DNA of 64,000 bases from Brachyhypopomus gauderio (Eukaryota; Chordata; Actinopteri; Gymnotiformes; Hypopomidae). Numbering within the stretch: the first letter of the stretch is position 1; each line of letters begins with the position of its first letter. Positions 310-60,061 of the stretch are shown one piece after another. Below the pieces are notes generated by a model. That model searched no databases. It saw only the letters and a program-made list of their open reading frames with translations, and had not been told where the DNA came from. Where the stretch lies: contig NC_135212.1 in the NCBI RefSeq assembly GCF_052324685.1, positions 46,583,626 through 46,647,625 of the forward strand. Reading direction: 5' to 3'. A program made the position numbers and the translations under genes.

Positions 310-9222
<8,913 letters not shown>

Positions 9223-18398: not shown

Positions 18399-21300
18399 TG
18401 TTCTTTATGACCTCACCCATCCCACGCCACTTTCGTCCCGTACACAGAACAGCTCAGAGAAGCCCAAGAGGCCCATCTCCGCCATGTTCATCTTCTCCGA
18501 GGAGAAACGGCCCAAGCTCCAGCAGGAACGGCCCGACCTGTCCGACAACGAGCTCACCAGACTCCTGGCCCGCATGTGGAACGAGCTCGCCGACAAGAAG
18601 AAGGTACTGAATCACGTACGGCGAGCGCCAACACTCCTTCAGCCCTGACTTGCAGCTGAATCCCTCTGGAAACAGTGACTGTGGGTGGAAGCTTGTGCAG
18701 CCATACTTTGATTTTGATTATGCTGATTTAGAACTCGATTTAGACACAATTTCTAAATAGTTTGTCGCCCATTTGTGGCTGACCTTTTCCAAAAACATGT
18801 CCAATCAGCTTGAGCTCTCTGACGAGCAGACGCGTCCAGTCCCTCTCTTCTGTAAGGTTCGGTAAAATCATCCTCCCACGCGGCTAAGTTGATCCGGTTT
18901 GGGGAAGGATGGCAGCATGTGCCATTTTGCTGCTGATGTATTAGGCTAATGTTCTTACTGGAAGCGAAAGTAGGCAAAGTCGAGTAAAGTCGAGCATTGT
19001 CAAAGTGTACAAGGGAGTATGGCAGCACAAGCTTTCGCCCACGGTCACTGAAAGGTCCACCCAATAACAGGAAAAATACAAGAACCTGGAGGCAGTGCTC
19101 AAGGCGGAGTCAGAGAGACGAGGGAGGGAGGAGCAAAGCAAGCTGCCGGACCCGCCCAAGACTGCACAGGACATTTGGCAACATAGTGTCATTGGCGATT
19201 ACATGGCCCGCTTTAAGGTAGTAAATGTCACCTAGCTAAGGTTTTGTTAACTGTAGCGTCCTGATATGATGGCTAGCATCTGTGTCTTTAATACCAAACT
19301 TGTTACCCCATCTGTGTGTTTGTTCAGAATGACCGGCCAAAGGCACAGAAAGCTATGGAAGCCACCTGGAACACCATGGAGAAGAAGGAGAAGATTATGT
19401 GGATCAAAAAGGCTGCGGAGGATCAGAAGAGATACGAGGTGGGCAGACCTTGTTGGAACATTTTACATCTTACCACCTACCAAAGTCAGGCCACCGTGTT
19501 CCAGATAAGGTCTGCGAGTGTTTGACCCGAATACTGGTGTCAGTGTGAACTGAAAAACTGGAGCTCTTGCTGCACTTCTAACAGAAGCATTTCAGAGCCT
19601 CTTGGCTACTTCTTAAGCCAGAACTGCCCGTCATCCCCATCACCTCTCCCATCGGGTTAATCTTTTGGCTTGCCGTAACCTTGCTAAAAATCACGATCAT
19701 GCCTTTTGAACCTCTACGTCAGAGTCTGACCAAGGCGTGCGGTATGTTGGGCCTCACGCCGTCTCCCTGTTCACTGTGTCCTTGTGCTCAGAGAGAGCTG
19801 AGTGAGATGCGCTCCCCCACGGCCATAATCGCCTCCGGCAAGAAGATGAAATTTGACGGAGAGCCCAAAAAACCACCATCGTGAGTGTTTATCTTTGCTC
19901 TTATCTGCTTGCGTATTGGTTGTTGGTGTTGCTGCGATGTTGCGTGATTGGGCGTTTGAAATCTTACGAACCATAACGAATCGTAGACTGCGCGTGGTCC
20001 GTAGCCAGTTGGTGACGCTGCGATGTCGTTCTCTTTCGTCTCTTTGCCGAATCAGAAACGGCTATCAGAAGTTCTCCCAGGAGATGCTGTCCAATGGGGA
20101 GCTGAACCATCTGCCCATGAAGGAGCGCATGGCCGAGATTGGCGGGCGCTGGCAGAGACTCCCGCTGAAGGAGAAGGACCGCTACAAGAAGATCGCTGAG
20201 GAGAAACAGAAGCAGTACAAAGTGCAGCTGGAACAGTGGCTCGCGGTAACTCAACCACCGCCAAATATCAACCCCATCTCTTAGACTTAGACAATCTTGT
20301 CATTCATTGTAGACGGGTGTACGCAGAACGAAATTTAGTTGCATTTAAGCTCGCGCAGTGTGCACAAAATTTGGATATAAATATATATCAATATATTTTT
20401 CAGTAAGATAGGGTTAAGATTTAAGATTACAAGAATGTGACTGGTGGCATCACAGGATTAACCAAAATACGTAATACGTGTGTACAAATATAGAGATGTA
20501 GAAGTGTAGAAACTGGGATACTGAATATAGAAGTGCAGACGTATAGCAGCAGGGATAATTAAATATGGGTATGTGGTATAGATATATAATACACATCTGC
20601 ATATATATCTATATGTATATACATATCTACAAATAAAATAGAATAGCAGCACGAATAAATATCAGTAAAGTGGCATTGTGGAATCAGATCTCCCTCTTGC
20701 AGTTCGAGAATGGCCATGTACAGTTAGATGTTCCTTTTATCATATCTTTTTTTTTTCTTTCTTTAAGTGTAAATTGATCAATGTTAATATAGGTTTGTAA
20801 ATAAAATGTCACATGGTGAAATTATGTCTCCAATACAGAGCTTATCATCTCAGGAGAGAGCGACCTATAAGGAATACAACTCCTTGGTAAGTTAGCTGTT
20901 TGTTTTTCTCCATGTTAACGTCTCCATGTTAACTAGCATTTAACACACAGCTGCCTTCCTTCCCTATTCCTCTGCAGAAAAGGAGGAATGTGGGTAAAGC
21001 GAGTGCTGCCACTGCCAAGAAGAAGGCAAAGACCAAGTGCTCTGTGAGTATACTTCCACACTCCCGCACCTCCACGCTCCCGCGTCTGTCCCGCACCTCC
21101 ACGCTCCCGCGTCTGTCCCGCACCTCCACGCTCCCGCGTCTGTCCCGCACCTCCACGCTCCCGCGTCTGTCCCGCACCTCCACGCTCCCGCGTCTGTCCC
21201 GCACCTCCACGCTCCCGCGTCTGTCCCGCACCTCCACGCTCCCGCGTCTGTCCCGCACCTCCACGCTCCCGCGTCTGTCCCGCACCTCCACGCTCCCGCG

Positions 21301-22066
21301 TCTGTCCCGCACCTCCACGCTCCCGCGTCTGTCCCGCACCTCCACGCTCCCGCGTCTGTCCCGCACCTCCACGCTCCCGCGTCTGTCCCGCGTCTGTCCC
21401 GCACCTCCACGCTCCCGCGTCTGTCCCGCACCTCCACAGTCTGGGCTCAAGTCATTTTTCTCCTCTGTAGGACTTGGATGACGATGACGAAGATGACGAT
21501 GACGAAGATGATGATGACGAAGAAGAAAAGGAGTCTGAGGACGGATCATCTAGCGGCGATGACAGCGAGGAGGAAGATGACGATGATGACGTGAGATTGC
21601 TAGCGTTGTTTGTGAATGATAAAATATAGTTTATAGGTAGATTAGATGCATAGGGTTTGAACCAGAGGTGCAGAGTTGAGACGATTAAAGTAAATTCAGC
21701 ATCCTGATTTTCCTCAAACTGCTAATAGCTCATTGGGCGATACATATCTGTATGTGACCAGTGACTTACATTCAAGCAAACTGGGTGGTGTGAATCCTGG
21801 CAGCATTTACTTTATGGTACTTCTGATTTTAACCAGTGACTTGTTGTCCTGTAGCTGTTAGAAATCTGTTCTTTAAAACATGTCAAATGTTGTTTCCGTA
21901 ACACCCCAGGACTGTTTATGGTTGTGATATTAAAACCTACTTTGTCTGCTTTGATCAGAATGAGGATGAGGAAGAGGATGAAGAGGCCGAGGATAAGGAG
22001 AATAAATCTGAGAGCAGCAGCAGTGCGTCCAGTTCGGGTGATTCATCTGATTCCGACTCTGACTGA
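13482..22066 (+). CDS. ubtf: Upstream binding transcription factor UBF
   Basis: HMG-box factor that bends rDNA promoter DNA and drives RNA polymerase I transcription in the nucleolus. Twenty coding exons with matching phases: 13482-13518, 13719-13891, 14197-14280, 15337-15492, 16546-16610, 16804-16930, 17105-17215, 17514-17647, 17822-17963, 18104-18145, 18230-18343, 18448-18603, 19071-19217, 19328-19438, 19792-19880, 20056-20245, 20839-20886, 20978-21043, 21471-21590 and 21959-22066, giving 739 residues (human UBF1 is 764). The N-terminal dimerisation region is followed by six HMG boxes, at roughly residues 99-165 ([17 protein letters not shown]), 185-255, 295-360, 396-465 ([17 protein letters not shown]), 470-535 and 560-625. 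The Asp/Glu/Ser acidic tail runs from about 665 to the TGA at 22064. The start MNGGMDSAN fits the family start MNGEAD. It lies tail-to-head after slc4a1, as in human. Confidence 0.97.
14281..15336. other. ubtf intron 3, no feature
   Basis: No gene, element or tandem repeat that I can support, apart from a short poly-C run near 14830. Confidence 0.7.
15493..16545. other. ubtf intron 4, no feature
   Basis: AT-rich intron, nothing recognisable. Confidence 0.7.
17105..17215 (+). other. ubtf: ubtf 37-codon cassette exon (UBF1/UBF2 switch)
   Basis: This exon is exactly 111 nt (37 codons) with phase 0 at both ends and covers most of HMG box 2. In mammals UBF2 lacks 37 residues of HMG box 2 through skipping of the equivalent exon. 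Skipping here would keep the frame, so the same isoform pair is possible. Confidence 0.7.
17660..17812 (+). mobile_element. tRNA-derived SINE-like relic
   Basis: Within the ubtf intron after exon 17514-17647. It contains a B-box-like GGGGTTCAATCCCC followed by a GGTCCTTGGGCAAGACTC tract, a combination seen in fish tRNA-derived SINEs. An A box and target duplication were not clear, so family and borders are uncertain. Confidence 0.45.
18367..18397. repeat. (TG)n microsatellite in ubtf intron
   Basis: About 15 TG units, a short distance before the exon at 18448. Confidence 0.95.
18604..19070. other. ubtf intron, no feature
   Basis: Contains a few near-repeated GTCGAGTAAAG motifs around 18970-19000, otherwise nothing recognisable. 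Confidence 0.6.
20285..20690. mobile_element. Decayed interspersed repeat in ubtf intron
   Basis: The stretch GTACGCAGAACGAAATTTAG near 20320, followed by an AT-rich tract with loosely repeated ATATAGAAGTG-type words, resembles the ends of common fish retroelement copies carrying an ACGAAATTTCGTTGC core. Class and borders cannot be fixed by eye. Confidence 0.35.
21050..21439. repeat. 27-bp CpG-rich minisatellite, about 14 copies
   Basis: Nearly identical units of CTCCCGCGTCTGTCCCGCACCTCCACG begin within 15 bases of the donor at 21043 and fill almost the whole ubtf intron up to the acceptor at 21470. One copy carries an extra partial unit near 21385. The period is nine codons, so long open frames appear in several frames. 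They are repeat artefacts, since the flanking exons splice cleanly in phase. Confidence 0.97.
21591..21958. other. Last ubtf intron, no feature
   Basis: Nothing recognisable. Confidence 0.7.
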
Positions 22067-34104: not shown

Positions 34105-36918
<2,814 letters not shown>

Positions 36919-40460: not shown

Positions 40461-40518
<58 letters not shown>

Positions 40519-41755
40519 AACACACGCACACACATGCACACACACGTACAAACACAGACACACGCACACACACAAACACACGCACACACAAACACACACA
40601 CACACACATACATACACACACGTATACACACACACACACACACACACACGTATACACACACACACAAACACACACACACAAACATTAGAACTAAATGATG
40701 ATGAATTTTGTCACAATCTACCACCTTTTAGTTTGCTTTCCCTGACCTAATTAAATAGCTGAATGAAGAGAACCCAAAGCTGCAGTAACACCTCTACAGT
40801 AACACCTCAAGTCCAGAACCCAAAGCTGTAGCTAAATGTACACAATCACCAAATGTTAGTGTTACTTTAGATGCCTTAATATAATAAGGTCAAAGCGTTA
40901 CTACTCGTGTTACGCTAACTTATTTAGAATCAGTATTATAACATCATTTTCCCTTTTCCACCTTTTTTTCTCTCAGTTTCACTCTGACGTTCTCATGTTC
41001 CCATGGCAACAGCAGCCTCCACTCACAGGTAAGTGTCAGCAGTGCTGCACAGGTGAAGTGGTGCGTTGCCGTCAGCGGACAACACGTCGGGGTCAGCGCC
41101 GTGGTCCAGCAGAAGCTTCACGCAGGTGTGGTGAGCCCCAGAGCAGGCGTCGTGGAGGGCTGTTCTCCCACCCGGGTCCGCGTCCACCTCCGCTCCCCGG
41201 AACAACAGCTCCTCCACGCAGCCACAGTGCCCCCTGCTGGCGGCCAGGCGCAGTGCGGAGGTCTGATTCACTTTGGACGAGATAGTCCACATGCCTGCAG
41301 GAAATTATTCTACATTACTATTATCATTTTATGAATGAGTTCATCATAACCACTGAAAGACTGAGAAGGGGTCCTGAGAATGTGTGTAACCCACATAACT
41401 CGCTGTATCGGTCCCTACCCATCTCTGGTGTCCACACCATTTCCTCACGCACCGTCTCCATCAGAGCGTTCACCATGCCGGGCTCTTTCAGCACGTCGTA
41501 CACGCCCTTCATGTCGCCGCACATGAACGTGTTGTGGACCACCGGGTCCCTGCAGCGCAGCTGGGGCGGCGCCGCCCGCACCGTCTGGATCCTCTCGGCC
41601 CCGTGTCTGAGGCGGGGAGCTGCCGGGAGGGGCCGCCTGCTCATGGCCCGCCGCTGGGCCAGAGTCCTGCGGGCCTCCTCCCAGTCCTGGAGCTCCTGCT
41701 CCAGCCGCAAGGAGCGCAGCGAGGCCGCCGTGAAGGCGAAGCTGTCGCGGGACAT
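38879..41755 (-). CDS. asb16: Ankyrin repeat and SOCS box protein 16
   Basis: Substrate-recognition subunit of a Cullin5-type (ECS) ubiquitin ligase. Six exons on the minus strand: 41755-41419, 41294-41027, 40279-39871, 39748-39665, 39300-39187 and 39064-38879, with phases consistent throughout, giving 465 residues (human 453). The N-terminus MSRDSFAFTAASLRSLRLEQ resembles the family start. Ankyrin repeats cover exons 2 to 4 (for example TPLHVACRRGLQEHVELLL, TALHNACGNCSPRIAQLLL, GYTPMDCLLQ). The last exon carries the SOCS box and ends DYLLLRIEGQLH, close to the human ending. I placed the exon 3 donor at GTCAGA (after CTCCAG) rather than GTAAGA 20 bases later, because only the former keeps phase. 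Intron 2 is mostly CA repeat. Located between tmub2 and a divergent promoter region. Confidence 0.95.
39430..39580 (+). mobile_element. LINE/SINE 3' tail relic
   Basis: Ends TATAAAGTGCTATATAAATA followed by repeated ATTGA, the typical 3' tail of fish L2/CR1-type retroelements and SINEs that share it. Located in an asb16 intron; the 5' border is unclear. Confidence 0.45.
40290..40685. repeat. (CA)n microsatellite, about 395 bp
   Basis: Long CA tract with CACG, CACAAA and CATG interruptions, starting close to the acceptor of asb16 exon 3. It gives open frames on both strands that are Cys/Val or His/Thr repeats and not genes. Confidence 0.97.
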
Positions 41756-43107
41756 GCGGCAGGTTGGGGGGGGGGGGGGGGTGGGGGAGACTCACAGCGC
41801 AGTGACTACAGAAGAGAAACGTCTCATTTGACCTGAAGGTTTATTTGATCCCACTCCAGAGTTTCTTTATTGAGAGCCGCACGACCTTTAGGATATGTTG
41901 TAAAACAATGGCTTTGCAAGGTTACTACAACGGTATTATAATACTTTTGGCCATGCTATCATAAATTAAACATCCGTGAGTAAAATTAATTCTTACCAGA
42001 CATGACCTACACTCACCCTTGAAGGCAGGATGAACATCCAACGAAACCCTTGTTTGGCCAACACTGCACTTTAAGATAAACTTATCCAGTCTTGTTCAAT
42101 ATCTGACACAGATACAACTGCTTGGTATTGATAAGACTATAATGTCCACCGAATGTCCTTTGAGAGGCAGCGTGGTCAGTCACAGGATAATGTTGACCCA
42201 GCACACGTTGGCGCTCCTGTTATTAATAGAATAGAATGCAAGCCGATATGATCGGTGCAGTTGCATTAAACCGCCTTTGGAGGGCGCAGTAAATGCAGTC
42301 AATTCACTTAGATTGTTTTTCAGCTATTCTTTTCTTACACAGCTTTTAACACTTTTATAGTCACTCTTATACACTGCCTTTAATTGGGTTTGTCATGCAG
42401 AATATCTGTTGTGGAGACATCAAGTTACCGGTAACAACAGGTTTGTTAGTATCCAAAACAGCTTTTACCACCAGCTGACACCAGCCTGGAGAGACAATAA
42501 CACGTTCACATATTCTGTATTTAGTATTATTTTCACGCTTGAACAACAGTTTATAACGTACAAAAAACAACGAGGACACGAAGTGTTTACAGCATAAACA
42601 TTGTTTTAATAAAAAAAAATTACTTTTGTAAAGTTATTTTTTTGCCAGCTTTAAGCCACATTATCTAAAATGTTTGGAAAGTCGAGTCTACGTCAAAGCG
42701 TATCCAAGGATTAACTTCATACTTTCGCTTTTCTTTTCACGACCACATACAAAGATGGCAGTGTTTTAATGGGTGAGGGATATATAAATATATCTATGCA
42801 TACGCCTATATAAGCGATATAGTTACATAATAATAAGACCAATTGAAGAGAGTTGATTTTATTTTCTCGTAACGACGATGAACCTGTTGATAGTCGATCT
42901 CATCTAACGCCAAAGGTATTGCTCATACTTCCTGTAAAACCAGCTAGCTTCAGTGTGAGCGATCATGTTTCGTGGCGCTTAAGACATTTTTTTCATCCAA
43001 TAGATTCAATTAATGACGTCTAAAAATCTATCCAGCAAAAACTGTTAAAAACTTGAACACACGTTTTGTGTTCATGTCCTTTAAACAGGTACCCGAGTGT
43101 CCAGAAG
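41756..43107. promoter_or_regulatory. Divergent promoter interval asb16 / RBM43-DTC gene
   Basis: Head-to-head interval of 1.35 kb. A poly-G run of 14 lies just 5' of asb16 (41766-41780). The right half is AT-rich and holds the ISRE-like site listed separately. No open frame of note. Confidence 0.5.
42720..42741 (-). promoter_or_regulatory. ISRE/IRF-like element
   Basis: The minus strand reads GTGAAAAGAAAAGCGAAAGT, containing two AANNGAAA IRF half-sites in tandem. It lies about 370 bases upstream of the start codon of the RBM43-DTC gene. Position and composition suit an interferon-stimulated response element; function is inferred only. Confidence 0.45.
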
Positions 43108-46100
43108 ATGGCGGAAGTGCTGCGCACCGTATGTGTTCGCGGTTTGCCCAGCGGCATCAAACACGAGCGACTAGCAGATAAACTTGAAGTTCATTTTCTG
43201 CGGGCGCGGAACGGAGGAGGAGAGATAACTTCACTTATCATTAAAGCAGTGGACCGACTTGCCCTCATTACCTTTGAAGATAGCACAGGTCTCTCTTTAT
43301 TCGGCTCTTCAGGAGAATACGTGAATGAGGGGAACAGAGAAGGGCTTAATTTAACATCAAAAATAATGTATAGATAGCATACGAAGATACAGATATTGAT
43401 GTGATATTTAAAATACTTTTGTAAGCCACTTCAGCAGTACTTCATATTATAATTAAGTCTGTGTGGCTTTAGGTCTGCAATTCTTTACCGTCTGGTTTGC
43501 CAAGACTGCCATTAACTTTTTATTTATAGCCTGGCAGAGGCTGAGTTTATTTACTGGTTGTCTAAAATGTCTGAGTATCTTTACCGCCCGCCATTATATA
43601 CATATATGTGTGTGTGTGTGTGTGTGTGTGCATCTACACTGCTTTTTCTGAGTACATCCTCATTCTTTAAATGAGACTGGTCTTTCTTTCTGACTTCATC
43701 CAGTCGCTCTCCGTGTGCTCAGACACTGCCCACACATCTTTGAGGTGGACGGTAGACAGTACAAGCTTGCTGTGAGTTTTCCATGGCAAAAGTCATGGCA
43801 CCCAAACAAGGTATAGTAGAAAGCAAGAATAAACAAACAAAAAATGCAGTTGCTTTCCTATAAATGCAATTTAATATTTATTTGAAAATCACCCTCCTTC
43901 ATATCACACCTCCGTGTCTTCCTCTCCTGTACCAGGTGATCCTTAATATGTCTGTGACCATAGACTACAGTCAGCTGACCCAGGGCGAGGACGCTGTAAA
44001 AAGTCTAAGCGAGAAATTTCCGGGCCTTCGTGTCCACTTCCTCAGACAACAGAGGCAGTGTTCCTTGCACGGGCCGTTTTCAGAGGTGCAGTCCGTTGTG
44101 TCTCACCTGATGGAGCTCTTTGGAAACCCTGACGCACTAGAAGAAAATGGTTCTTCATACGAAGGAGACAGAAATCAAAGTTCAGGGAATAACCATGGTG
44201 ATATACAACACCAAGGAGAAGCCAGACCTGCAGACCACACTCATGGGCTTCTGTGGAAGAACCCAAGTAATGAGAGGACAAATTTGGACTTCTCCCCAAC
44301 ACGGACTCGCACTACTGAGGAGAGGAAGGACTGGACAGAAGAGTTAGGTGTGGAGGATCTGTCCCTGATCATGGAGGCCGACGTGTTTGCATACTTGCAC
44401 ACCAGGAGTAAGGCGTACAGGCATATATTAGACAGCCATGGGGTGTATGTGGTTGATGTGACATCAGAGGGGGTCACTACACTGTACTTGCAGTCTGACG
44501 CAAATGCGAAGACAGAATCAGACACAGAGAAACGCTTGAGGCAAGCCCGTGAGGAGCTGAGTTGCCTTTACCACCAGCTGGAAGGTAATCTGAGAAGAGC
44601 TCAGATCCGGAGGAGTGCCCTCAGCCTGCGGGGAGGGGACACTGCGGCTTTTAAAGACTTGCAGTCCTTACTTCCCAAAGTACTGCTCAGCTACGATCAG
44701 ACACATGTTTACGTTGTAGGTGAGAGCAGTGAAGTCTCTCAGGCCAAACAGATCCTCCTGCTTGGTTCAAGAGATGAGCAGTGGCTGAACGGCACCCCGA
44801 AGAACGACACGTCACGTTCCTCAACCCCCCCGAACCCTGACGCCCCAGCCCCTCAAGTGGAGACACCCCAGGCAGGAGAGTTCACTGGTAGCATCACAGC
44901 AGCTACCCCCAAAATGACCGTCTCAGGAGCTGAACACAGAGGAAGGGGCAGGGAGGAGTACAAACTGGCAGCTCGGTTTAAGAAGTCTGATACGAGATTC
45001 TTGGGCTTCAGCCCTGGAGAAAGTAGGAGAGCTAAAGAGCTCCGAGATTTAACCCTAGGCATGAACCCAAAAACTCTAACCTCAAACTCGAGACCAACAC
45101 TGCCCCCAGAGGCCTCTTTAGGTACTGCAGGAACGGTGAATGACGAGAAGGCTGGACCTTCTCAGATTAGTGCTCCTTACACTGGTGTGCTTCAGCCAAT
45201 AGGAGCAAGCCACACAGGAGATGATATTTTGTATCAGAATACCGGTCGCCAGATGTTTACAAACACATCCAAAACCTGTGAACCACTCTCAAGTAGAGTT
45301 AGTAAAACATGTTCCACAAAATCAACCTCCACATTAACACCTGCAGTCAAAGCTCCACCCAGCACATCTGTGAACGCCCTATCAGGGCTTGACAAACAGA
45401 CCAAGGCTCCCATCCAAGCTGCATTAGGGACTTTCTCCACTCCCCGTCCTTCCTTGAGAAGATCGAATAGTTTTTCTGGACGATCTTCTCAAAAACAGGA
45501 AACACAAAAGACTGGGCTCAATAAAAAACCAAGCCATCACCTTAAAAAAACACGGTCCAGTAGTTTTAAAAGTGGTGAACAGGGCGATGAACGTTCATGT
45601 TGTGTTGTCTCATCAGACATCATAGTGTCTGCAGTGATGTGGAACTACATGAAAGTGGCGTACGAGTCCCGTCTGGCAGCTCTGGTCTCTGATCTACAGG
45701 TCTCTGAGTGCCCAGCAGGCACCCGTGAGGTCAGAGTTAATCTGAAGGGATCAGAGGCGTCAAAGGTTGGCGATTGTCAGCATGAGCTTCAGAGGCTGGT
45801 TGGTATGATAGCTTCAGACTTTTCTGTGCAGGAGCTTCACCTGTCTGATCCTGGTGGAACTGCAGGCAGCGAAGTACTTGAAGCTTGTTGCTCAAACATT
45901 CGTTCCCGCTTCAGCAAAATCTGCCTGCGCAATGTGAAGGACAAAGTTCTCCTGACCGGACCCAAGCTGCTCTGTGCCCAGGTCACTGACATGCTCAGAG
46001 AAGTGTTTCCTAACTTGGTGACAGATCCCAGTCAAGCAACTGCAGTTATTGAGACTCTGTTCCAATGCAATGATCATATCACACCAAGTCAGATGAAAGT

Positions 46101-47497
46101 TGACACAGAGTGTCGTGAAGGATATCAAACAGGTGGACACAGAGCCTCCCAATCTCCATTCTGGAGCTCTGGAATCAAATCACCAAAACAGAACCCAGTT
46201 GTTAAGGAGATGCTTAAGAAGGGTGGACCCACAAATTTGGAAGGAGGAAAGGTTGACATGTTACCGAGCCAATCATCTTTGGCTAGCTCTAGTGCTCCAG
46301 CGCTCACGGCACATAAAAAAGAAAACACAACCCCACTGACCTCAAAACCCTCCACCTCGCTGGTCGGTAACTATTCAGAACCTTCTGAATGTGGAGGGCG
46401 GGGTTTACCTGTAGCACAAACAAGTGAGATGTTCCTGGGCCCCCACTACCTTCCACTGGTGTGTCCCACAGTGAAGACACCTGGGGAGCCTTCACACGAC
46501 ATGTGGGCGTGTCGGCTTAAAGAGGCGCAGACTACAGAAAAGCTCACAGGAAAAGAAACATGCAAGGGACCGCCCCAAGTGCGAGGTATTCAAGGCACCA
46601 TGAAGTGTGTCAAGATACCACAAAGCCTGTCAGGCCACGAACCATACCCAACCGCCAGGATCACCTATCACATTCCTGACGGCATCCAAGGGGTATAAGT
46701 TTGAAAGCACTTTCTTCCCCATTGTTGAGAAACCTTTTTGATAGACACGCTGAATGGTTTAGAACTTGTTTATACCGGCTCATCACCGTTTGTTTTGTTT
46801 TTTTTTTTTGTTTTACTCATAGGAGGGGCATCCTAACCCTGGGTCGCCATTCCAAGGAGGCATATTTGACGCATATCTGCCCATGAGTGCAAAGGAGCTG
46901 GACTTACTGCATAGCCTAGAGAAAGCATTTAAACAAGGGTTAACCTTCACTATTCACCCTGGTGACACGGAGGGCTACAGAGGTGCAAGGGTAGTTTGGA
47001 ACAGAATCCCTCACAAGATGAATATGGAAGGAGGGAGGAGTGGGTGAGTTTTAGTACACCTTCCTTGTGAAAAAAAATACAAGGAAATAATATAAGGAAG
47101 TAAAGGTATACAGGAAATACATAAAAGAATAAAGGCTAGAGGACATGTGACTGTGGTTTTAAAAGAATGCAGGCCAAGCCACAGAGACGTGTGACCTGGT
47201 TCAAAAATAGATACGCTTAAGTCCTTTACAAAATAGAGGTACTCACGTTCAGCTTCAATTACGTTTCAGCTTTAATTACATAAAAGTAGCTTTAGAGTAT
47301 TAAAGTAGTAAACATTGCTGCTCTATGAAATGTTGAATTTGTTAAATCAGTGCACATCTTGTGTGGTTTTTCTAATAGTTTGTTCAAGATTGCTAACAGG
47401 TTATTTCGTGTGTACGTACAGGAATGGATATCCGGACTCCACCTACCTTAATGACCTGGCTGAGGTGTTGATGGCTGGAAGAACTGATAAAGACTAA
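43108..47497 (+). CDS. RBM43/NMI-like N-terminus fused to RING-less Deltex C-terminal domain
   Basis: Five exons with matching phases: 43108-43288, 43704-43810, 43936-46692, 46823-47043 and 47422-47497, giving 1113 residues. Residues 1-100 form an RRM/NID-like domain close to RBM43 and the repeats of NMI/IFI35 (VRGLPSGIK, then LEVHFLRARNGGGEI). Residues 100-160 and 232-365 look like the KH-like segments of RBM43 (LSLIMEADVFAYLH, VYVVDVTSEGVTTLYLQ). About 366-650 is low-complexity, Ser/Thr/Pro-rich and probably disordered. Residues 651-790 are another KH-like block (VMWNYMKVAYESRL), and about 981-1113 are a DTC domain (ARITYHIPDGIQ, GHPNPGSPF, GYPDSTYL) most like DTX3L. No RING precedes the DTC; only scattered Cys remain. 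The motif usually WNDIHHKT reads WNRIPHKM (residues 1074-1081). Such proteins suggest RNA binding plus ubiquitin or ADP-ribose recognition in antiviral responses; this is inference. The ATG (AAGATGGCGG) is in good context. Confidence 0.85.
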
Positions 47498-47944: not shown

Positions 47945-49535
47945 ATGAGATACACACCAATCATATCCTCCGTGGACTTCAGGAAGAGATACATACCAAT
48001 CATATCCTCCGTGGACTTCAGGAAGAGATACACACCAATCATATCCTCCGTGGACTGCAGGAAGAGATACACACCAATCATATCCTCCGTGGACTTCAGG
48101 ATGAGATACGCACCAATCATATCCTCCGTGAACTTCAGGATGAGATACGCACCAATCATATCCTACGTGGACTTCAGGATGAGATACGCACCAATCATAT
48201 CCTCCATGGACTTCAGGAAGAGATACGCATCAATCATATCCTCCGTGGACTGCAGGAAGAGATACGCACCAATCATATCCTCCGTGAACTTCAGGATGAG
48301 ATTCGCACCAATCATATCCTCCGTGGACTGCCGGAAGAGATATGCACCAATCATATCCTCCGTGGACTGCAGGTTGAGATATGCACCAATCATATCCTCC
48401 GTGGACTGCAGGAAGAGATACGCACCAATCATATCCTCCGTGGACTGCAGGAAGAGATACGCACCAATCATATTCTCCGTGGACTGCAGGAAGAGATATG
48501 CACCAATCATATCCTCCGTGGACTGCAGGTTGAGATACGCACCAATCATATCCTCTGTGAACTTCAGGTTGAGATACGCACCAATCATATCCTCCGTGAA
48601 CTTCAGGATGAGATACGCACCAATCATATCCTCCATGGACTGCAGGTTGAGATACGCACCAATCATATCCTCCGTGGACTGCAGGTTGAGATACGCACCA
48701 ATCATATCCTCCGTGGACTGCAGGACGAGATACGCACCAATCATATCCTCCGTGGACTGCAGGTTGAGATACGCACCAATCATATCCTCCGTGAACTTCA
48801 GGATGAGATACGCACCAATCATATCCTCCGTGGACTGCAGGAAGAGATACGCACCAATCATATCCTCCGTGGACTTCAGGATGAGATACGCACCAATCAT
48901 ATCCTCCGTGAACTTCAGGATGAGATTCGCACCAATCATATCCTCCGTGGACTGCAGGAAGAGATACGCACCAATCATATCCTCCGTGAACTTCAGGATG
49001 AGATTCGCACCAATCATATCCTCCGTGGACTGCCGGAAGAGATATGCACCAATCATATCCTCCGTGGACTGCAGGTTGAGATACGCACCAATCATATCCT
49101 CCGTGGACTGCAGGAAGAGATATGCACCAATCATATCCTCCGTGGACTGCAGGAAGAGATAGGCACCAATCATATCCTCCGTGGACTGCAGGTTGAGATA
49201 CGCACCAATCATATCCTCCGTGGACGGCAGGACGAGATACGGACCAATCATATCCTCCGTGGACTGCAGGACGAGATACGCACCAATCAAATCCTTCGTG
49301 GACTGCAGGACGAGATACGCACCAATCAAATCCTCCGTGGACTGCAGGACGAGATACGCACCAATCAAATCCTCCGTGGACTGCAGGACGAGATACGCAC
49401 CAATCAAATCCTCCGTGGACTGCAGGACGAGATACGCACCAATCAAATCCTCCGTGGACTGCAGGACGAGATACGCACCAATCAAATCCTCCGTGGACTG
49501 CAGGACGAGATACGCACCAATCAAATCCTCCTCCA
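47945..49535. repeat. 39-bp minisatellite, about 41 copies, open in three frames
   Basis: Units share the core ACCAATCATATCCTCCGTGG and differ in the following GACTGCAGGA / GACTTCAGGA / AACTTCAGGT segment. The last seven units switch to AATCAAATCC and are nearly identical to one another. The period is 13 codons without stops, so the plus strand shows 553- and 405-codon frames and the minus strand 457 codons. The plus frame reads as repeats of EIRTNHILRGLQE. No splice links to neighbouring genes and no known domain; regarded as satellite. Confidence 0.97.
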
Positions 49536-51303
49536 TCTTGGAGAGCCGTTTAAAGGCAGAGACAGAAAATCACTAAGGCCACTGCATAGTTAATGGAGAC
49601 GATCTGCTTTCATCATAAAAAGGCCCCTGGAGATTTTCTATTGCACTTACCAGCAACTGATGTGTTATTTGTGCATAACGGATGACAATAAAGATCCGTC
49701 TCAGAGGGAAGAAAGAGCATCTGAAGCACAGTGACTCTTACAGCCCTGTACAACATTCTCTTGGCATATAAGCATTAAAAGATATGGATCATTATATCAA
49801 GCTAAGAAGAAGATTCAGTTCTAAGAAGCAGTTCCATGGCAACTGGTTTGTTTGCTGTCAGGGGTGAGTGAATGATGTAGGAACTGTTTGCCAGCAATGA
49901 ATCACAGAGAACCAGCATGAAGTGCCTGTGCTGGGAAAAGCAGTTATAAAGGCCATTCACTGGCAGAGGAAGTGTTGACTAGGGACTCCAAAGTCTTGCA
50001 CAGACTAGGAACCAGGAGACTCGCAGTATACTTGCACCGTTGGTGCAAACGTAAGCTATTTGTACTACTACAAGTGGTTACAGTGTGTAGAGTACATTTA
50101 ATTCCGATATGTTTTTGTCTTTCAGCCTTGGACAATTTAAGACTGTGTAAACATTGACTTTTTGTGATCATGTTCTCTATTTTTCTGAACTGGCCTTCTG
50201 TTTGAACATGTTTTCATATCTCCAGAAAATATTCTAACAGCCCTCATTTCTTTGACTAATAATTACTTAGATGTCAACGAACTATATATATTGTACATGG
50301 TGTAAACATTGTTATATTAAACATCACTAGTGATTTATCATGGTCATGCCAGAGAGTACTTCACACAATCTTTACTTTCCCACCTAATCATGCATGGACT
50401 TCAGGGATGTTTGAAAAATCCCGAGACAAGCAGGTGAATACAGATAGTCATAAAGATTTGTGCTGGTTTTCAACCTTTGGTTTACGCACCAACTGGAGTT
50501 TTGTAGACGTGTCATTGTAGCGATTAATATACTTGATATATTTGCAACATGATTGGAATGTCAGCTGCATCATTTTATGAAAGACGTTTCACTGTTATCA
50601 CTGGAGTGTTGAGGAATTCCTGTCACTTCCCTTAATGACAAAATAAAATACTTTTTCTTTTTCATTTTTTAAAAATGTGATCGTTTGGGATGAATTCACA
50701 GAGAAACGTTATTTGAAATCATAAAAGGACGCCAATCTCATTAGTCTCATCTCACTTGAGGCGTTTGGTTTGGCTATTTGTGCTGCATTTGAGATTTGTA
50801 AAACATTGTGTTGACAAGGCAGTCATGGCAGATTTGTTTACATCTATCGCATTTAGCAGATTAAACTTCCCTAAATTGCTGTGGACAAGAACGTTTGCTA
50901 AATGCCATGAGTGTAAATATGATTCACTGTTAGTATAAATTCATTTACACTCTAGATAGATTCGACAGTACTGTAATTTCCCCGTTTTTATTTGCCTAAT
51001 CAGTGCGTGAGGGGGAGCGTTCAGCAGGGTGTTGGTTCAAGAACAGCTTTAAAGCAATTCCTCAATTGTCCCTCAGGGATGAATAAAGTTTTCTGAATCT
51101 GAAATGTATTTGTTTTTAATAAAATGTTTACCACCCAGGTCTAGCTCATAACATGGAGAGATATAGGTGAAATGTTCCCAGATATGTGTCCATCAGACTC
51201 CATTCCACTTTATTTCACCAGAACGATCACCGCAGGCCTGTCAAAGCCACAATGCTGAAAGACTTGAATGACAGGACACACCACTAAATGACATCACCTG
51301 CAC
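49536..51303. other. Intergenic region before TRIM-like gene
   Basis: No gene recognised. Several short open frames below 80 codons look random. A retroelement tail relic is listed at 51005-51105. Confidence 0.65.
51005..51105 (+). mobile_element. Retroelement 3' tail relic
   Basis: Contains TTGTCCCTCAGGGATGAATA followed by AAGTTTTCTGAATCTGAA, matching the widespread fish non-LTR 3' end with a CCCTCxGGGAT hairpin and AATAAAGT. The 5' part is missing or unrecognisable. Confidence 0.5.
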
Positions 51304-51411
51304 ATGTATACCGTGTCTTCTTTCATTCTTACACACACCCACGAAGCTCAAATGATTAGCAACAAGAAAGCTGGAGCTCAAGAACGGCAAATCCTGACAC
51401 CGATGTGGAAG

Positions 51412-52338
51412 ATGGCAGACACGGCGCTAGAGGACCACGACTCTTTCAGCTGTCCCATCTGTCTGGACCCACTCCAGGATCCGGTCACCATCCCGTGTGG
51501 ACATAACTACTGCATGGCTTGCATTAATGATTACTGGAACCAGCATGAGTACACTGGCGCCTACAGATGCCCTGAGTGCAGGGAGTCCTTCACGCCAAGG
51601 CCCACGCTCAACAAGAACGGTATGTTTGCTGAGGTGGTGGAGCGGTTGCAAAAGACGAGACTGCGGGACTCCTCGCCTGCCGATTCCGGTCCTGCACATG
51701 TGGAATGCCGAGAGTGTGTGGGACGGAATCCCCAAGCTATCGGAACCTGCCCCGAGCGGGGGCTTGACGCAGACCGCTACGACTCCGCCAATTTACGGGA
51801 GAAACACATCGTGATTGTTGTCAGCGGAGACCCCAGCAAGAACATCTGTGTTCACAACATGCCCCTGGAGATCTACTGTCGTACGGACCAGCAGCTGATC
51901 TGCTCCTTCTGCTACGTCGAGAGTCACAGGAACCACGACGCCGTTTCGGTCGCACCGTTTAGTTCGGAAAGACCGTTGTGCGAGAGGTGTCATGGGAAGA
52001 AGTGCCACAGGCAGAGGTCACATGGGCACAGCAGAAAGTCACACAAGTGCAGCGGGCACAGGAGCGGGCACGGGAGCGGGAAGAAGTCCCCGCTGAGAAG
52101 CACACGTGAAGCTGGTCACTGTGAAAGTCACGGGCATGGGCGTAGAAGGCAGGAGCGAGGCAGCGAGGGAGGTGGGCATGTGGTGGGCAGGCCCGACAAC
52201 TGGCAGATGAACAGCAGACATGGGAGTAGGACCCCGGGGCCAAGCAGGGCCAACAGAAGCCGACACCTGCAGCATGTAGCCGTGGCTCGGACCCACATCA
52301 GACATGGACATGGGCTCCAGAGTCGGGAAACGCAGTGA
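51412..52338 (+). CDS. Intronless TRIM-like RING/B-box protein with His/Arg-rich tail
   Basis: Single-exon frame of 308 codons from ATG 51412 (AAGATGGCA context). In-frame ATGs at 51403 and 51304 would extend the N-terminus, but the family usually starts about a dozen residues before the RING. C3HC4 RING at residues 14-56: C14, C17, C29, H31, C34, C37, C53, C56 (SCPICLDPLQDPVTIPCGH). The first B-box is degenerate: C99, C102 and C113 are present but later ligands are missing. The second B-box is complete at 146-175 (C146, H148, C156, D159, C164, C167, H172, H175). There is no coiled coil or PRY/SPRY; residues 178-308 are rich in His, Ser, Gly and Arg. It resembles the first exon of fish finTRIM/TRIM25-like genes with a novel tail. 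Probable E3 ubiquitin ligase; whether it is a live gene or a truncated one is open. AATAAA lies at 52577-52582. Confidence 0.75.
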   Translation: MADTALEDHDSFSCPICLDPLQDPVTIPCGHNYCMACINDYWNQHEYTGAYRCPECRESFTPRPTLNKNGMFAEVVERLQKTRLRDSSPADSGPAHVECRECVGRNPQAIGTCPERGLDADRYDSANLREKHIVIVVSGDPSKNICVHNMPLEIYCRTDQQLICSFCYVESHRNHDAVSVAPFSSERPLCERCHGKKCHRQRSHGHSRKSHKCSGHRSGHGSGKKSPLRSTREAGHCESHGHGRRRQERGSEGGGHVVGRPDNWQMNSRHGSRTPGPSRANRSRHLQHVAVARTHIRHGHGLQSRETQ

Positions 52339-59451: not shown

Positions 59452-60061
59452 ATGACAGGTAAGAGGCATTTTCTAAGACTGAAGGAACGGAGGCATTAAT
59501 AGAGGTGATAGATGAAGCATGAATGAAAACATCCTTGCATAACACACCAGCTTACTCACACACACGTACGTACACACACCCACAGACACACACCCACCCA
59601 CAGACACACCCACCCACAGACACACACCTGCTCCAGGTGGTAGATGTTGTCAATGCGGGGTTTGATCTTGCTCTCACTGTACATCTTCAGAAGGGCTTCC
59701 ATGACCTGGTCGATCAGCTCCGGTTTCTCCGTCCAGGTACCCCAGATGGAAGCCGCAGACCGAGCGGTTCCCCTGGATCAGGCTGAGCGTGTGCACAGAG
59801 AACTGCTGGTACCAGGTCTTCGCCACGGCAAACAGGTTCTTCTTCTGACCCGACAGCATGTTGGCGGCACCTGTGGAGAGTGACAGCATGAGGGGTTCGG
59901 CCTGAACGGTGCGACCCCTCGTCGTTGGGTGCGACCCCTCGCCCCTGGGGTTAGAGTTCAGGCTTGGTCAACAGAATCGGATTTGGCTTTCCGCTCACCC
60001 AGCTTCATTTGGACATTCAGCACCAGAGAAAAACTCCAACTCATCCAGACTTTCAACTGAG

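Follow-up and report, generated by a model that had tools for sequence, protein, structure and literature searches.

A RING-less protein with a Deltex C-terminal domain and replaced catalytic positions in Brachyhypopomus gauderio, a candidate Deltex pseudoligase

Gene structure and domain content

The present study analysed a 64,000-nucleotide stretch of the Brachyhypopomus gauderio genome (NCBI RefSeq assembly GCF_052324685.1, contig NC_135212.1, positions 46,583,626 to 46,647,625 of the forward strand; hereafter the window, whose own numbering is used throughout), in which a five-exon gene on the + strand (43108-47497) encodes a protein with an N-terminal NID-type RRM, KH-like blocks and a Deltex C-terminal (DTC) domain, lacking a RING and with three catalytic positions replaced. 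The gene model had been proposed in an earlier note made from the DNA letters, and it holds: the spliced exons give 1113 codons plus a stop, all four introns are GT-AG, and exon 3 sits within a 944-codon open frame in the list of open reading frames (ORFs). The DTC profile match spans exons 3, 4 and 5 in turn, so that the last two exon junctions are backed by homology, while the position and phase of intron 1, read by eye, are the same in two relatives from this genome, L012 and L016. The features of the gene are as follows.

43108..43288, + strand: exon 1, residues 1-61, with the start codon and the beginning of the NID-type RRM (splicing model, Pfam)
43704..43810, + strand: exon 2, residues 61-96, completing the RRM (splicing model; L012 counterpart)
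43936..46692, + strand: exon 3, residues 97-1015, carrying the KH-like blocks and linkers and running into the DTC (the 963-codon large exon of L012 covers the larger part)
43936..44127, + strand: KHL1-like block, residues 97-160, at the place of DTX3L D2 (L012 likeness; KH_PARP14_3 match under its cut-off)
44344..44787, + strand: KHL2-3-like block, residues 233-380 (L012 likeness)
45451..45483, + strand: motif SLRRSNSFSGR, residues 602-612, in a linker (kept in L012/L016)
45595..46047, + strand: conserved block, possibly KHL4-5, residues 650-800 (L012 likeness)
46048..46581, + strand: linker at the place of the DTX3L RING, residues 801-978 (no C-x2-C pair)
46582..46692, + strand: first part of the DTC, residues 979-1015 (Pfam, phmmer against PDB)
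46823..47043, + strand: exon 4, DTC core, residues 1016-1089 (PF18102 7.9e-14 for the exon alone; genome search match)
47009..47011, + strand: Pro1078 codon, replacing the catalytic His, DTX2 H582 / DTX3L H707 (DTC alignment)
47422..47497, + strand: exon 5, last part of the DTC with the stop codon (splicing model, Pfam)
47423..47425, + strand: Asn1090 codon, at the DTX2 H594 / DTX3L Y719 site (DTC alignment)
47465..47467, + strand: Val1104 codon, replacing the catalytic Glu, DTX2 E608 / DTX3L E733 (DTC alignment)

The spliced protein was searched against Pfam, five families being listed up to E 10, a range in which the HMMER filters drop most matches above 0.1. Both ends of the protein were identified as the earlier note had named them. 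The DTC family PF18102 matched residues 982-1105 (E 3.3e-30), and NID PF07292 matched the N terminus (E 1.5e-12; best stretch residues 5-41), the NID/RRM lying near residues 5-84. RRM_PARP14_3 (E 2.9e-5, 24.5 bits against a cut-off of 24), RRM_PARP14_1 (E 3.3e-5, 24.1 bits, under its cut-off of 27) and KH_PARP14_3 (E 0.0057, under its cut-off) completed the list. In phmmer searches of PDB sequences, the N terminus matched the solved NMI and IFI35 domains, and residues ~980-1110 matched DTX2 (5.5e-24), DTX1 (1.2e-20) and DTX3L (7e-17).

Missing RING and replaced catalytic positions

No RING precedes the DTC, as previously proposed: Pfam returned no RING model up to E 10 in exon 3 or in the spliced protein, residues 790-985 included, and there are zero C-x2-C pairs across all 1113 residues, which speaks against a hidden RING. 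A six-frame search of the window and 11 loci with a C3HC4 pattern matched only L009, L010, L011 and a TRIM-like ORF in the window. Because the pattern also failed to match L014 and L023-L025, loci of the DTX1/2/4 type that should carry a RING, a negative with it says little, and the missing RING is argued from the C-x2-C count and the Pfam result instead. In L009, L010 and L011 the RING shares an exon with the start of the DTC; in the window, a single uninterrupted open exon leads from the last conserved block into the DTC, and there is therefore no sign of a missed RING exon. Neither a C-x2-C pair nor a RING was found in the 963-residue large exon of L012, and in the L012 stretch 2771-3722 a single C-x2-C occurs, confined to one forward frame out of three, and the RING pattern is absent.

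The replacement of the catalytic triad had gone unnoticed in the earlier note. The DTC was aligned in 13 rows comprising the window, nine other loci of the same genome and three PDB chains. In this alignment DTX2 His582, His594 and Glu608 correspond to Pro1078, Asn1090 and Val1104, with Glu1103 one residue before Val1104, and the distances between these sites match those in the published numbering of DTX2 (582, 594, 608) and DTX3L (707, 719, 733). The catalytic His and Glu are retained in 10 of the 12 other rows (seven from this genome and three from PDB), the exceptions being L012, with Pro/Asn/Thr at the triad sites, and L013. This pair is described as strictly conserved among DTX proteins, the His directly contacting ADP-ribose (PMC7615817), and in the reported ubiquitination of single-stranded DNA (ssDNA) by DTX3L, H707A abolishes the reaction, E733A impairs it and Y719A is defective (PMC11460948). 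Because the catalytic residues are replaced, ligase activity of the window protein itself is, judging by its sequence, very unlikely, and reading of ADP-ribose by the usual DTC pocket is doubtful; the earlier proposal that ADP-ribosylated or NAD-linked targets might be recognised is weakened as far as this pocket is concerned.

The same residues bear on the idea, also raised previously, that a RING partner could be recruited. The protein would then be half of a split ligase, with the RING coming from DTX3L or from the TRIM-like neighbour at 51292-52338, which carries a RING and a B-box and lies ~3.8 kb downstream on the same strand; DTX3L is moreover reported to oligomerise (PMC10955461). However, no ssDNA product formed when the RING and DTC of DTX3L were provided in trans, not even at 10:1 (PMC11460948), which makes a borrowed RING unlikely; the protein also lacks the catalytic His and Glu, and the TRIM-like ORF has no match at E 1e-4 in L012, L020 and L021 around the paralogue. 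A split ligase is thus credited with very little probability.

Paralogue L012 and constraint on the DTC

The genome search for the DTC covered the 796.5-Mb assembly holding the window, only the best candidates being scored, and its 23 matches among these were grouped into 10 loci. In the 13-row DTC tree the window groups at 99/99 with L012, a locus on contig C3 with two RRM exons, a KHL1-like exon, a 963-codon large exon and the DTC in its last exons, whose first exons and DTC exons have ends matching those in the window. Between the two copies synonymous divergence (pS) is near saturation, at 0.788 over 1022 aligned codons, and the DTC is the best-conserved block, with 50.0% identity over 134 residues, a non-synonymous divergence (pN) of 0.334 and pS 0.728. 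The RRM follows (pN 0.381), then the three KH-like blocks (pN 0.444-0.551), which are 39% (KHL1-like, 59 aligned residues), 31.2% (KHL2-3-like, 138 residues) and 27.2% (block 650-800, 147 residues) identical, and the two long linkers (pN 0.581 and 0.597); the first linker (pN 0.463, pS 0.623 over 33 residues) was excluded from the main comparison. The DTC is under amino-acid constraint, and the paralogue has been retained.

A decaying pseudogene or a misjoined model might explain why the RING and catalytic residues are lost and why the linkers align poorly with the paralogue. Yet 1113 codons are open and the splice sites intact, the second copy has matching ends of its first exons and DTC exons, and amino-acid constraint persists despite near-saturated synonymous divergence, so that we attach hardly any weight to decay or misjoining.

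A VAT-1-like gene is found near both copies, at 59677-59967 in the window and at L021, and these two share 71% identity; the TRIM-like ORF of the window sits between the gene under study and the VAT-1-like gene. This fits an old segmental or whole-genome duplication, which may perhaps be the teleost genome duplication.

Much of the DTC has been kept while its catalytic positions were lost, since 29 of the 41 columns invariant in the ten rows other than the window, L012 and L013 are kept in the window and 28 in L012 (29 in L013). Nine invariant columns are altered in both the window and L012. In four of these the new residue is the same (Arg to Phe, Val to Leu twice, His to Pro), whereas the remaining five differ (window/L012: Ile to Ala/Leu, Gly to Glu/Thr, Gly to His/Lys, Ser to Gly/Glu, Glu to Val/Thr). 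Asn is common to both copies at the His594 site, a His/Tyr/Phe position. Such a pattern invites the explanation that the DTC pocket took on a new ligand, whether a modified nucleotide, a nucleic acid or a protein surface, and that the protein would act as its reader and not as a decoy. The identical changes, the shared Asn and the rank of the DTC as best-conserved block speak for a reader, as does the report that the DTX3L DTC binds ssDNA in the same pocket as ADP-ribose (PMC11460948); the five columns that differ between the copies speak against it, and we regard this explanation as unlikely on its sequence evidence.

Relatives in the same genome and origin of the gene

Two introns interrupt the DTC, one after GIQ (phase 0) and one before YPD (phase 2), both read by eye. 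They are common to the window, L012, L013 and the RING-bearing L009, L010 and L011, that is, to all three loci of the DTX3/DTX3L type, whereas in the four loci grouping with DTX1/DTX2 the last match is unbroken from approximately profile position 66 to the end. The DTC therefore belongs with DTX3/DTX3L. The earlier description of the gene as a chimera is consequently too strong, since DTX3L itself is published as a protein with an RRM, five KH-like domains, a RING and a DTC (PMC11080071; PMC13224862). The ancestor of the gene may have been a relative of DTX3L, with the RING lost later, or an NID gene to which a DTC was added; fusion of two parents, though possible, need not be invoked.

L010 and L011 are RING-bearing DTX3L-like genes of this genome. 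The former (G000:C3:30159000-30167500) is a short one, its large exon consisting of one weak KH_DTX3L-like block, the RING and the start of the DTC. A PARP search listed 36 matches among its best candidates, and neither DTX3L-like locus, at C1:25.6 Mb or at C3:30.16 Mb, has one of them nearby.

Another relative, L016, shares intron 1 with the window and carries an NID exon and KH-like blocks, its large exon ending after one KH_DTX3L-like block and a tail; among the best candidates scored in the genome search, no DTC match fell on its contig. L016 is presumably of the RBM43 kind, with an NID-type RRM followed by KH-like repeats and not known to carry a DTC. The earlier comparison with RBM43 thus stands insofar as a DTC-less gene with NID and KH-like parts exists in this genome. 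The serine-basic motif is also kept, reading SLRRSNSFSGR in the window, ALKRSNSFSGR in L012 and ALRRSSSLPRQ in L016 within poorly conserved surroundings; it resembles a kinase or 14-3-3 site. The NID-type RRM, intron 1 and this motif, all held in common with L016, favour a long RBM43-type protein that binds RNA or proteins through its RRM and KH-like blocks and in which the DTC is a structural remnant. A remnant should not, however, be better conserved between paralogues than all other blocks, as the DTC is, and this account appears improbable.

L013 (G000:C13:23900500-23909500, 6155-8815) also has a DTC without the catalytic residues. Its four-exon model encodes a 178-residue protein, nearly all DTC (145.4 bits), which lacks any C-x2-C and in which Pro replaces the catalytic His and Ile the catalytic Glu; its start, MGSAQSK, is myristoylation-like. 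A common origin of the dead DTCs of the window, L012 and L013 was not rejected (approximately unbiased, AU, p 0.304), and the free tree sets L013 apart on a long branch. The dead DTC of L013 may hint, tentatively, that such domains form a wider class of binding modules.

Interpretation

The explanation that we favour, with a confidence somewhat above even, is that the gene encodes a non-catalytic Deltex pseudoligase acting as a scaffold or decoy. With the RING absent and three catalytic positions replaced, neither E2 loading nor activation of an acceptor hydroxyl would be expected. The N-terminal blocks would oligomerise or bind partners, as their DTX3L counterparts do with DTX3L, PARP9 and PARP14: D1-D2 are reported as required for DTX3L oligomers (PMC10955461), and KHL4 is named for the binding of both PARP9 and PARP14 in one account (PMC11080071), which differs from another in which KH2-KH3 bind PARP14 and KH4-KH5 bind PARP9 (PMC13224862). 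The conserved but altered DTC might bind some ligand or protein surface that it does not ubiquitinate, and a relative deprived of RING and triad but with matching N-terminal blocks could poison or organise DTX3L-type complexes. The sequence itself shows the domain layout, except for whether two of the blocks are KH domains, as well as the missing RING, the replaced triad, the kept paralogue and the constrained DTC; the loss of activity, the role as scaffold or decoy, the identity of partners and a connection with interferon or ADP-ribose signalling are inferred.

Several results weigh against this interpretation. The phmmer alignment to DTX2 inserts a gap that places Glu1103 on the catalytic Glu; neither the 13-row alignment nor the ungapped phmmer match to DTX3L does so. 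The L012 model is partial, the exon between KHL1 and the large exon being not fully modelled, and the estimate of constraint from L012 leans on a partly unreliable linker alignment. Two single-sequence structure predictions of window pieces were of low confidence (mean predicted local distance difference test, pLDDT, 39.7 and 36.2) and were set aside. The upstream stretch 40500-43300 contains no exact GAAANNGAAA core, and hence there is no sign of interferon control; L012 has one GAAANNGAAA core ~520 bases before its start codon, which decides nothing because eight occur in the 64-kb window.

The KH-like blocks are the least certain part of the observation. Profile searches gave no KH family match for window pieces 232-385 and 640-800, so that any profile support for the KH-like segments of the earlier note comes from L012, whose piece matching 232-385 hits KH_DTX3L PF21718 (34.1 bits, cut-off 27.4), and not from the window itself. 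The counterpart pieces of L010, L016 and L011 are under the KH_DTX3L cut-off and a second L011 piece is over it. In profile comparisons, the 232-385 family block reached a weak 22.8% against the DTX3L block of this genome, and the 640-800 block 0.3% against the next block of DTX3L and a weak 31.3% against the 232-385 family block. Given the 22.8% and 0.3% values and the lack of KH hits, binding of PARP9 or PARP14 is without sequence support. Block 650-800, conserved between the paralogues, is possibly a KH domain, a candidate only. The KHL1-like block is likened to DTX3L D2 by its order within the protein, and the reported emergence of D2 with amniotes conflicts with naming a fish block in this way (PMC10955461).

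Going further than the pseudoligase reading, a fish lineage may be envisaged that has kept both copies since an old, perhaps the teleost, duplication, in which loss of RING and triad preceded the divergence of the copies and the DTC pocket was remodelled into a non-catalytic reader competing with DTX3L; this extended version is offered tentatively, as a possibility well short of even. Deltex proteins connect ADP-ribosylation, nucleic acids and ubiquitin, and a retained gene pair in which both RING and triad are missing would amount to a naturally occurring separation-of-function form. If so, the DTC and the N-terminal scaffold would be worth keeping without catalysis, and in fish immunity the protein could restrain DTX3L-type complexes as a built-in brake. 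A literature search of open-licence papers found no paper on a RING-less Deltex protein.

Neighbouring features in the window

Other features lie on both sides of the gene.

2544-3260, - strand: Sleeping Beauty/Tc1-type transposase ORF
20929-21549 and 35010-36410: repeat-like long ORFs, which look like further tandem arrays (ORF list only)
47945-49531: 39-bp minisatellite of 40.7 copies just 3' of the gene, open in several frames and giving long spurious ORFs
51292-52338, + strand: TRIM-like ORF with RING and B-box, best PDB match TRIM25

Comparison with known systems

The window gene most readily invites comparison with DTX3L, with whose published layout it shares the order of RRM, putative KH-like blocks and C-terminal DTC, and with the DTX3L-like genes of this genome it shares both DTC introns. 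It differs in the missing RING, the three replaced catalytic positions and the long linkers; moreover, its RRM is an NID by Pfam, unlike the putative RRM exon of L011, the DTX3L of this genome, and its PARP-binding KH-like block is only putative.

With the RBM43 kind it has in common the NID-type RRM followed by KH-like blocks, whereas a DTC is not known there. The N-terminal NID match is likewise shared with NMI and IFI35, which are not known to carry a DTC. Human IFI35 adjoins VAT1, and the window gene is near a VAT1-like gene.

With DTX1/DTX2/DTX4 the gene shares the DTC domain and a first DTC intron at about the same place, whereas the second DTC intron is elsewhere in all four such loci of this genome. 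These proteins are described as carrying WWE domains and a RING, unlike the window gene (PMC7615817), and the Deltex family as a whole is described as five RING E3s with a strictly conserved His-Glu pair (PMC11460948; PMC7615817).

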